From: Bacilli bacterium
Lineage (GTDB): Bacteria > Bacillota_I > Bacilli_A > ML615J-28 > CAG-698
NCBI GenBank assembly: GCA_017962745.1
Contig: JAGCUR010000006.1
Span: forward strand, 1 to 64,000
Direction of reading: 5' to 3'
Length of the DNA: 64,000 nt
Shown here: one piece after another, positions 32,340 through 34,103 of the stretch
Layout: each line of letters starts with the position of its first letter
Numbering within the stretch: position 1 is the first letter of the stretch
Translations under genes and position numbers: made by a program
The notes under the pieces: generated by a model
Database searches by the model: none
Seen by the model: only the letters and a program-made list of their open reading frames with translations
What the model was told of the DNA's origin: nothing

Positions 32340-32582
32340 AAAAAAGTCCATAAGAATCATATAATTCTTAAGGACTAGATAATTATCCAGCGGTGCCACC
32401 TTAATTAAAAGTAAAAAACTAAGCGCTCTTTACTTCTCGCTTCTTTTGTTTTTAACGCAAACCTACGCTTATAGAAGACCTATTCAGGTGTCGGAATAAT
32501 AATTTAATTAATAAGTTTGCACCATCCACTTACTCTCTACGTAAATAAATTATCTTCATCCTGCTTAATCGGCTATTTAACT
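32340..32582 (-). promoter_or_regulatory. T-box riboswitch of hisS-aspS
   Basis: The antisense-strand T-box core AAGGTGGCACCGCTGG lies at 32402-32387, matching AGGGTGGNACCGCG. It is followed by a terminator hairpin (AGTCC...TAAGAAT / ATTCTTA...GGACT) with seven T residues (32376-32338). In stem I, CAGG pairs with CCTG and ATAATTTA with TAAATTAT. The internal loop's 3' side reads TATTCC-GAC-A-C, placing GAC (Asp) as specifier codon followed by the expected purine; the overlapping triplet CAC is a His codon. Uncharged cognate tRNA should favour antitermination. The structure was folded by hand. Confidence 0.85.
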
Positions 32583-32617: not shown

Positions 32618-32719
32618 TCAATAAAAATATTCGGCATTTTATCTTAAGATATTTTTATAAAAAGTGCCCAAAAGTTATCGATATTTTAGGGATAATTTTT
32701 GAACTTTCCGTTAAATTTT

Positions 32720-32755
32720 ATAACTGTTGACAGTTATATTATAATATGTTATCAT
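32720..32755 (+). promoter_or_regulatory. Promoter and palindromic operator of the HTH-MNT/HEPN-ASCH module
   Basis: TTGACA (32727-32732) and TATCAT (32750-32755) are 17 bp apart. The -35 is embedded in the perfect palindrome ATAACTG-TTGA-CAGTTAT (32720-32737). A dimeric HTH protein bound here would block RNA polymerase, so autoregulation by the first gene's HTH domain is likely. Between this and the hisS promoter (32620-32715) I see only AT-rich DNA with a weak hairpin. Confidence 0.7.
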
Positions 32756-32773: not shown

Positions 32774-33364
32774 ATGTTAATAGATTTAATCAAAGATAAA
32801 GGTATTAGCGTTTATAGTTTAGCTAAAGGGTCAAATGTCCCTTATACAACAGTAAACGAAATTGTTTTAGGGAAGAAAAATATAATGGATTGTAGTATCA
32901 AAACAATTATGGCTATCGCTAATTATCTTGGATATCAAACTGATGAATTTGTTCGCCAAATTACATCTTCTAATTCGGATTTATCTACGAGTTGGCAAGA
33001 TGCGAAATCAAAATCTTACATATTCCCTATTATTTGTAATAATCCTCATTATGAAGTTAGAATGATTCATCCGTTGAAGCAAAAAATGATTAATGAACTA
33101 TTTCAATTATTCAATAATATTCCTGCTATTTCCAAAGTAATATTGTTTGGAAGTAGCATCAATATTAGATGCAAATCAAATAGCGACATCGATTTAGCAA
33201 TACTTTTAAATGAAAATGATTTTAATAATGATACAAAAAACCAAGTATCAGAATTAATTCAAGAAAAAAGCGATTATTGTTGTGACATAATTTGGCTAAA
33301 TGATATTTCTAAAAAGACAAAGCTTTATGAAAACATCAAAATGGGGTTAACAATTTATGAGTAA
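32774..33364 (+). CDS. HTH-nucleotidyltransferase (MNT) antitoxin-like protein
   Basis: A 196-residue fusion. Residues 1-60 form a Cro/C1-type helix-turn-helix (ISVYSLAKGSNVPYTTVNEIV). Residues about 100-196 form a minimal nucleotidyltransferase with G126-S127 of LFGSS, the metal-binding pair D138-x-D140 in SDIDLA and the third carboxylate D171. MNT partners of HEPN toxins are known to neutralise them, in some cases by adding AMP to the toxin. All three catalytic carboxylates are kept, so activity is plausible. The ATG at 32774 is chosen because of GAGGTGAT upstream and because the longer frame would start inside the promoter. It overlaps the HEPN gene by 8 bp. Confidence 0.88.
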   Translation: MLIDLIKDKGISVYSLAKGSNVPYTTVNEIVLGKKNIMDCSIKTIMAIANYLGYQTDEFVRQITSSNSDLSTSWQDAKSKSYIFPIICNNPHYEVRMIHPLKQKMINELFQLFNNIPAISKVILFGSSINIRCKSNSDIDLAILLNENDFNNDTKNQVSELIQEKSDYCCDIIWLNDISKKTKLYENIKMGLTIYE

Positions 33365-34070
33365 ACTATTAGCAAGAGCCAAAGTTAAAAGAGTAAATGC
33401 GGAATACGATTATCAAAATATATCAATTGATGATGCATATATTGATGATTGTTGTTATAACTTAGAACAAGCTATTGAATTCGCCCTTAAATACTTAGTT
33501 GAAATGAATGGTGAGAATTATGTAGAAAACCATGACATCAGAGCACAAATGAATAAACTTAAATCGCTTAATGCTTATATCCCTTGCGAAAAAGAATTAA
33601 GACTACATGCTTCTACTATTAATTCATGGGAAGTTGAAACTAGATATAACGATAATTTTGTCGCACTGATTGAAGATATTAACGATATTAAAGATATAGC
33701 TGATGCAATAATAGATTATTGTGATAGCTTAGTTAAGACACTTCACGATATGAAATTATATGATGATGCATTTAATCTCATTAAGAATAAAACTAAAACA
33801 ATTGAAATGCGCTTAAATGATAAAAAACGAAAACTTCTTAAAAAAGGTGATTTCATTAGATTCACTAATACACTAACAGGCGAAAAGCTCATTTGTGAAA
33901 TAATCGATATTTATAAATATAAAACATTTACTGAACTATATAAGCATCACGATAAAGTATCAATTGGTTATAAAAAAAGTGATAATCCAAACCCAGATGA
34001 TATGTTGGCATATTATTCATATGAAGATATTAATAAATACGGTGTATTAGCAATTAAAATTAAAGTATAA
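33357..34070 (+). CDS. HEPN-ASCH fusion protein, probable toxin of a TA module
   Basis: A 237-residue, two-domain protein. Residues 1-130 match a HEPN domain of the C-terminal-kanamycin-transferase-like kind: NLEQAIEFALKYLVE (35-49), VENHDI (56-61, the THDL position) and ETRYND (94-99, the RYP position). Residues about 145-237 match an ASCH domain: TIEMRLNDKKRKLLKKGD (148-165), FIRF, an aromatic/Gly-rich middle, then YYSYE (219-223) and YGVLAI (228-233). ASCH is an RNA/nucleotide-binding fold with known ribonuclease or amidohydrolase members. The canonical R-x4-6-H RNase motif is not evident in the HEPN half. It is translationally coupled to the HTH-MNT gene. The role is inferred from architecture. 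Confidence 0.8.
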   Translation: MSKLLARAKVKRVNAEYDYQNISIDDAYIDDCCYNLEQAIEFALKYLVEMNGENYVENHDIRAQMNKLKSLNAYIPCEKELRLHASTINSWEVETRYNDNFVALIEDINDIKDIADAIIDYCDSLVKTLHDMKLYDDAFNLIKNKTKTIEMRLNDKKRKLLKKGDFIRFTNTLTGEKLICEIIDIYKYKTFTELYKHHDKVSIGYKKSDNPNPDDMLAYYSYEDINKYGVLAIKIKV

Positions 34071-34074
34071 ATAT

Positions 34075-34100
34075 AAGTCCTCTACTATTGTAGAGGACTT
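34075..34100. terminator. Bidirectional terminator after the HEPN-ASCH gene
   Basis: An 11-bp perfect stem AAGTCCTCTAC / GTAGAGGACTT with loop TATT, between the convergent HEPN-ASCH and aldehyde dehydrogenase genes. Confidence 0.85.
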
Positions 34101-34103
34101 ATT

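Follow-up and report, generated by a model that had tools for sequence, protein, structure and literature searches.

An HTH-MNT/HEPN-ASCH gene pair of a Bacilli bacterium as a putative Class II-type HEPN/MNT toxin-antitoxin operon

Two overlapping genes for an HTH-MNT and a HEPN-ASCH protein reside on the 64,000-nucleotide stretch of DNA analyzed here (the window; contig JAGCUR010000006.1 of Bacilli bacterium assembly GCA_017962745.1, a 1.54-Mb draft genome of 19 contigs that is 97% complete). We consider it rather probable that they make up, on the chromosome, a toxin-antitoxin operon of the Class II HEPN/MNT type, in which one protein would do two antitoxin jobs and ASCH would not be the core toxin. 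The HEPN/MNT pair as a kind is already known; what sets this one apart is the HTH on the MNT protein, the conserved operator and the ASCH domain on the HEPN protein.

Gene arrangement and domain architecture

The first gene (positions 32774 to 33364, plus strand) encodes a protein of 196 amino acids that is predicted from Pfam and NCBIfam to be an autorepressor and nucleotidyltransferase antitoxin. The second (33357 to 34070, plus strand), taken from the ORF list and Pfam, encodes a predicted toxin of 237 amino acids. These coordinates bear out the 8-bp overlap with the MNT gene in first position that the first-pass annotation had described. The best start for the HTH-MNT reading frame is the ATG at 32774 with AGAGGTG five bases upstream, and a mechanical ORF list puts the start earlier, at TTG 32699. 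Neighboring genes with names are aspS, hisS and an aldehyde dehydrogenase gene. The strong terminator said to follow the pair stands in part: a hairpin of 13 pairs is present between the convergent genes (34073 to 34102), but its T-tract satisfies the scan only on the minus strand, where it is terminator-like; it may thus work chiefly for the convergent gene, or in both directions. On the minus strand, a T-box leader of hisS is found at 32367 to 32578 (Rfam RF00230, full length, E 7.6e-18); its score of 80 bits lies just below the gathering score of 93 and would therefore be missed at default settings.

The proposed joining of a Cro-type HTH to a nucleotidyltransferase agrees with Pfam, which places HTH_26 at residues 2-59 (32777 to 32950, plus strand; 32.7 bits, cut-off 22) and Polbeta at residues 108-196 (33095 to 33361, plus strand; 43.2 bits, cut-off 26.9) of the first protein, both above the curated cut-offs; NTP_transf_2 (PF01909) is also found (26.8 bits, cut-off 21). 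The HTH domain, of the Cro/C1 type, contains a PYTT-NE stretch common to five close relatives. All three carboxylates named beforehand are present in the nucleotidyltransferase domain, D138 and D140 as part of a GSX10DXD motif (G126-D140) and D171 as the third Asp. Among seven aligned MNT proteins, the GSX10DXD motif, D138 and D140 occur in every one, as does a motif of the D-x-W type in which D171 lies. The top NCBIfam match is MntA_antitoxin with 34.6 bits, and its falling below the cut-off of 60 counts against the toxin-antitoxin reading. Single-sequence matches to PDB are weak (best 9xbd_E, 7ae2_B and 5yep_A, E 0.004-0.015), and a profile search of PDB finds the Legionella MNT 8xeh_E with an E of 1.1e-5. 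The structure model is of moderate quality (mean pLDDT 65) with best structural matches that mix HTH repressors and MntA. Foldseek returned no match at E 0.001 or less for this model or for that of HEPN-ASCH.

The second protein was likewise confirmed to combine HEPN with a C-terminal ASCH domain, since Pfam finds both above the curated cut-offs, PF05168 at residues 17-123 (44.6 bits, cut-off 22) and PF04266 at residues 132-200 (30.3 bits, cut-off 21.2). The HEPN part as a whole covers residues 1-127 (33357 to 33737, plus strand); it contains H59 and R96-Y97 and belongs to the Class II type. A motif scan finds no R-x4-6-H in it, as had been noted, nor in five relatives, and RX4HXY occurs in none of these six sequences. 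Invariant in all six are Y97 in a TRY motif, H59 and R96, and also the further tyrosines Y19, Y46, Y55 and Y121. The model of the HEPN part has pLDDT blocks of 77-94, but only 58 for residues 91-100 with the TRY motif, and the ASCH half is unreliable (mostly below 50); both count against our main reading. For the modeled HEPN part, VIA-align ranks 1o3u first (Z 14.0, rmsd 2.8, 116 aligned), followed by 1ufb (Z 13.4), 4nqf (12.7) and 2hsb (12.4), while HepT chains (7ae9, 5yep, 7bxo, 8xdj) reach Z 9.2-11.4. Helical bundles commonly give high Z values, and the fold match therefore only supports the sequence result. PDB sequences gave no match to the HEPN alignment profile at E 0.01. Of the structures named, 1o3u and 2hsb have been placed under PF05168 (PMC3710099).

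Conservation and distribution of the gene pair and its operator

A search with the second protein of 60 genomes, the window's own and 59 relatives, matched 16 genomes with two separate kinds of matches, HEPN and ASCH, and only in the window are the two joined. Four other genomes contain stand-alone HEPN genes of about 130 codons, all of them directly behind an HTH-MNT gene, whose products are 70-75% identical to residues 1-130 of the second protein. A fifth pair was the single relative obtained from a scan of genome contigs; it is located in a sheep-rumen Bacillota MAG (L023) that encodes a HEPN protein of 63% identity and in which no ASCH was found. Wider scans with the HEPN alignment matched fifteen genomes in all. 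The window frame has 239 codons and the 14 other frames have 130-161, too short for ASCH, which is thus an addition. As the pairs of the relatives lack ASCH, the conserved unit consists of HTH-MNT plus HEPN; to judge from the sequences, it is the operator, the HTH-MNT gene and a stand-alone HEPN gene.

This HEPN together with a full-length HTH-MNT (E 3e-89 or better) is present in five of 43 order genomes, the window included, and full-length HTH-MNT matches within the order are restricted to these five. Some HTH-MNT match is seen in 29 of the 43, the others being partial, with the HTH or the MNT part only, at E 7e-12 or worse. Both this rarity and the housekeeping-like neighbors of the module count against the toxin-antitoxin reading. 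HEPN alignment scans matched seven of 395 genomes of the class and eight of 391 genomes of the class to which the genome of L023 belongs; a sample of the phylum yielded five of 392, all among the seven class genomes. Seven weak distant matches (L064-L070) stem from the class of L023's genome. In L064, L065, L068 and L070, and also in L028, MNT ORFs of 100-145 amino acids adjoin HEPN and no HTH was found; L069 has an MNT-like ORF, and the filtered ORF listing of L066 and L067 contains neither HEPN nor MNT. The MNT protein in L029 carries another HTH (HTH_3). Two further genomes of the order gave matches to PF05168, G037 with 20.2 bits, below the cut-off, and G023 (L114, 479-1872) with 27.6 bits to a 177-residue protein of another kind without ASCH. 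The gene for the latter follows ORFs that look AbiE-like by eye.

The first-pass annotation had noted a palindrome containing the -35 box of the promoter, and this is borne out. The palindrome TATAACTG-TTGA-CAGTTATA spans 20 bp (32719 to 32738) and includes the -35 box TTGACA at 32727-32732, which is separated by 17 bp from the -10 box TATCAT at 32750-32755 (promoter 32727 to 32755, plus strand). When the window was shuffled 100 times, no match to the palindrome appeared at up to three mismatches. A general scan for promoters in the region did not rise above shuffles (14 found, 14.5 expected), so that the weight of the promoter call rests on conservation. The operator TATAACTGTTGACAGTTATA is identical upstream of the module in all five order members that have it, and the four others share the TTGACA -35 box, the 17-bp spacer and a -10 box that agrees in five or six of six positions. 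Over the same comparison the HTH domains are 47-53% and the HEPN proteins 71-75% identical to those of the window. The more distant L023 features two overlapping near copies of the operator. When a single mismatch is allowed and two bases of the spacer are left free, the operator occurs in six of 43 order genomes, once in each; as a control, the backward pattern is found once in each of two of the 43. Its exact conservation and its tracking of the gene pair support autoregulation, and HTH-MNT probably represses its own promoter through this operator. The earlier proposal of an antitoxin with a DNA-binding domain of its own thus gains support, as HTH_26 is part of the MNT protein and the operator over the -35 box is conserved with the pair.

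The sixth genome with the operator (G001, at one mismatch or less with free spacer) is of the window's genus. Its flanks on the hisS and the aldehyde dehydrogenase side are 88% and 84% identical at the DNA level to those of the window, and a search of the genome found no HEPN, no ASCH and no full-length HTH-MNT. The syntenic site carries TATAACTGCTAACAGTTATA, with intact arms and two changes in the spacer, as an orphan operator-like palindrome on the reverse strand (position 6176 of L055, G001:C16:70000-80000). We rejected the idea of a plain empty site into which the module was inserted in the window lineage, because the changed operator remains at this place. The arrangement suggests that the genes were lost and that only their operator stayed in place.

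These observations also bear on the question whether HTH-MNT and HEPN may constitute a domesticated, non-toxic regulator, i.e. a self-regulated signaling switch. With one operator per genome in six genomes, any regulon would be local, and HEPN domains in which the conserved charged residues are missing may bind without being active (PMC3710099). However, the only site found is the module's own promoter, which leaves little to regulate, and the patchy presence and apparent loss of the whole module fit a selfish or dispensable element better. We regard such a switch as improbable and prefer a toxin-antitoxin operon.

A role in defense, which had also been considered, has little evidence. PADLOC assigns the MNT half to candidate group PDC-S09 with up to 29.6 bits and an E of 1.6e-7; weaker matches of about 15 bits are PDC-M63A for the MNT and PDC-M69A for the HTH part. 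The second protein has no PADLOC match at E 1, so that no known defense system is matched by both proteins. The ten flanking genes scanned give no evidence for a defense island, which does not speak against a defense role as such: at E 0.001, eight are without match and two match partially, to dCTPase and E1-E2 models. We read these two as ordinary deaminase and ThiF-like enzymes that correspond to parts of larger models only.

Mobile elements were likewise searched. Protein and alignment scans of viral contigs revealed no confirmed relative of HEPN-ASCH, HEPN or ASCH. Phage records contain no match for the second protein, and the one phage match to HTH-MNT (24% identity, E 6e-4) was discarded because it is no MNT protein but a repressor with HTH and Peptidase_S24 domains that lies next to a recombinase. 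Plasmid records yielded two ASCH-only matches for the second protein and none for HTH-MNT. Two viral contigs match an 18-bp core of the operator and have no HTH-MNT among the ORFs nearby; these matches were taken as chance.

The ASCH domain and its possible roles

The ASCH part comprises residues 128-237 (33738 to 34067, plus strand), as delimited by Pfam and by ASCH sequences of relatives, and is joined to HEPN by a linker of a few residues (CDSLVKT-LHDMKLYD). Among PDB sequences it matches the archaeal ASCH proteins 1s04 (E 7.4e-7), 2z0t and 1xne. Its identity to 12 ASCH sequences from relatives is 43-60%, and the 22 positions that never vary among those are all preserved. Together with the 56 of 58 positions invariant in the five HEPN relatives that are retained in the HEPN part, this argues against decay. 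In the octapeptide G-x-K-x-x-[ETS]-x-R, the window sequence KTKTIEMR preserves K, E and R and has K in place of the initial G, a position that is occupied by G in eight, K in two, Q in one and H in one of the 12 relatives. That the fusion was found in one genome and one assembly could be put down to an error of the draft assembly, which we consider highly improbable, as the halves are joined by a short linker without frameshift or stop and both flanks are syntenic with the sister genome G001.

ASCH domains of this family are fairly common in the window's class (50 of 296 genomes). Thirty of the matches were taken as loci, 29 of which showed an ORF with the ASCH motif and ten of which were scanned with Pfam; four more loci (L012, L018, L021 and L022) were Pfam-scanned from an earlier search. 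In close relatives ASCH is mostly a separate gene with ORFs of 112-133 amino acids. Fusions are also seen: RNase HII with an in-frame C-terminal ASCH (L021, 895-1833), ASCH with HIT three times (L085, L086, L088; Pfam) and ASCH with GNAT in L091, L092 and L099, twice as ASCH-GNAT and once as GNAT-ASCH (Pfam). In L012, ASCH is joined to a short stretch that resembles a zinc ribbon or membrane segment by eye. The HIT and GNAT fusions suggest a role for the window-type ASCH family that may be related to nucleotide metabolism or RNA. A toxin-antitoxin-like pair is found twice (L089, 684-2374; L022, 1465-3122) and consists of a DUF3990 (ADP-ribosyltransferase-like) protein (99.6 bits in L089, 102 in L022) and a partner of 274-281 amino acids with a C-terminal ASCH that scores below the cut-off in L022. 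The DUF3990 protein has HTH_3 above the cut-off in L022 and below it, with 20.1 bits, in L089. In genome G028, a DUF3990/ASCH pair lies about 1.2 kb from a HEPN gene with one gene between them. Two proteins of 313 amino acids (L096, 1480-2418, and L097) match the ASCH alignment with their N-termini, and for the one in L096 no Pfam family was found at E 0.001.

The kept invariant positions and the frequent fusions of the family indicate that the tail is intact and that the domain travels. Judged on such comparisons, ASCH is a later graft onto HEPN and a mobile add-on in the window's class. The inner forks remain open in the trees of ASCH (8/10) and HTH-MNT (4/4), and the HEPN tree is weakly supported with no starred branch; the trees therefore point to no donor for ASCH.

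The first-pass annotation had tentatively placed the effector activity in ASCH on the grounds that HEPN lacks R-x4-6-H. This argument finds no support, because five relatives with the same operon are without ASCH, because the window HEPN retains 56 of the 58 positions that are invariant in theirs, and because loss of the motif is a recorded trait of PF05168 (Class II) proteins (PMC7641770, PMC3710099). An ASCH protein, ZmASCH, does degrade single-stranded RNA (PMC5615036), and ASCH could by analogy be the effector, either as a ribonuclease or as a nucleoside hydrolase, and HEPN its scaffold. We hold this to be very unlikely, since the five close relatives of the module without ASCH have a highly conserved HEPN. 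Furthermore, the amidohydrolase YqfB uses a Lys-Thr-Glu triad (K21, T24, E74) with Thr as the nucleophile (PMC9599836), and the window ASCH has Glu three positions after the Lys in its octapeptide (KTIEMR), where the triad would need Thr, and thus not a triad of this type.

It is possible, if less than probable, that the tail has no new function in the module at all and that a former stand-alone ASCH gene, which lost its start region through read-through or deletion, simply keeps its usual job, one related to nucleotides or RNA. In favor of such a passive tail, searches of the window genome revealed no second ASCH copy, all 22 invariant positions are kept and members of the family occur in the class as fusions with several unrelated proteins. 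Against it speak the position in frame behind a probably repressed promoter, a poor place for a constitutive gene, and the finding of no ASCH in G001, which makes it probable that the genus can do without the gene.

Relation to known systems and proposed mode of action

By its sequence features the pair is of the kind described as Class II HEPN/MNT modules. In these, HEPN (PF05168) is without RX4HXY and keeps the conserved Tyr, and MNT has GSX10DXD (Yao et al., 2020, PMC7641770); a figure legend of that paper gives 9,583 sequences from Class II modules. The window pair agrees in all of these traits and in having the MNT gene first, and differs by the N-terminal HTH on MNT with its conserved operator and by the C-terminal ASCH on HEPN. 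With HepT/MntA (Class I, type VII; PMC7641770, PMC11586414) it shares the two genes, GSX10DXD and the HEPN fold. Since RX4HXY is absent from its HEPN, it is not filed under type VII, and an HTH is unmentioned in the accessible text of either source. The toxicity and AMPylation results in PMC7641770 concern RX4HXY (Class I) pairs. In the HEPN-T family PF05168, Rx4-6H is lost and an upstream His is conserved, as in the window HEPN, and an alternative active site of His and a basic residue has been proposed (Anantharaman et al., 2013, PMC3710099). The window HEPN differs from this census by its ASCH; neither ASCH nor PUA is named in the text available of it.

PUA-like ASCH domains in toxin-antitoxin-like operons are known from XRE-ASCH and from the EVE/ASCH of GNAT/PIN modules (Bell et al., 2020, PMC7641849), where ASCH in such contexts and in restriction contexts is proposed to read modified bases. 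The partners are others there, and HEPN is unmentioned in the portion of the text at hand. Xress-MNTss of S. suis (PMC8406773) resembles the first protein in that an Xre HTH occurs together with an MNT-type protein and the system is autoregulated; in that case the two are separate proteins and MNT is reported as the toxin. In the largely open-access literature searched, the HEPN-ASCH fusion was not found, in line with the earlier statement that no system of this exact architecture has been characterized. An HTH-MNT fusion with HEPN is likewise not found in the accessible text of PMC2701414 and PMC7641770 or in a literature search on Xre/HEPN, and the text available of PMC8195603 mentions ASCH only in a reference title.

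The S. suis pair is one of several points in favor of an opposite division of labor, in which MNT would be an active, possibly toxic enzyme on RNA or a small molecule and HEPN(-ASCH) its substrate-binding subunit. This direction was proposed by Makarova (2009, PMC2701414), HEPN-fold domains are known to bind the substrate in nucleotidyltransferases (PMC3710099), and HEPN is far better conserved among close relatives (64-75%) than HTH-MNT (36-47%). However, HEPN is the toxin in the characterized HEPN/MNT pairs (PMC7641770, PMC11586414), the MNT gene comes first, as it almost always does in MNT-HEPN dyads (PMC3710099), and an HTH on MNT fits an antitoxin that acts as repressor. We therefore regard these reversed roles as unlikely.

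In the toxin-antitoxin operon that we prefer, HTH-MNT, probably as a dimer and probably bound to HEPN, would sit on the palindrome at the -35 box and keep its own promoter shut. By analogy with HepT/MntA (PMC7641770, PMC11586414), HTH-MNT is expected to modify HEPN: the MNT domain would hold HEPN and inactivate it by nucleotidylation of a conserved tyrosine, most likely with AMP; Y97 is the candidate. Freed or unmodified HEPN may then stop growth by acting on RNA, not via R-x4-6-H and perhaps with the conserved H59 and R96, which would correspond to the alternative His/Arg site suggested for PF05168. In the window lineage, the HEPN gene would have been fused to a pre-existing ASCH gene, and the PUA-like ASCH would most likely enable the HEPN protein to bind RNA or nucleotides in addition. 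More tentatively, the one-protein antitoxin may control a HEPN toxin that is steered by ASCH, as a PUA-like reader, to particular and perhaps modified RNAs, with ASCH as a recurrent targeting module. If this is true, the window's class would graft ASCH onto toxin-antitoxin partners repeatedly, the partner of the HTH-DUF3990 gene included.

Class II HEPN/MNT pairs are numerous; in the text available of PMC7641770, their toxin is without the active RNase motif and the experiments are on Class I. The module described here may serve as a compact test case, with a predicted repressor-modifier of 196 amino acids, a 20-bp operator that is identical across genera and very well conserved stand-alone HEPN relatives. 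HEPN and HEPN-ASCH would provide a natural comparison that isolates the contribution of the extra domain.
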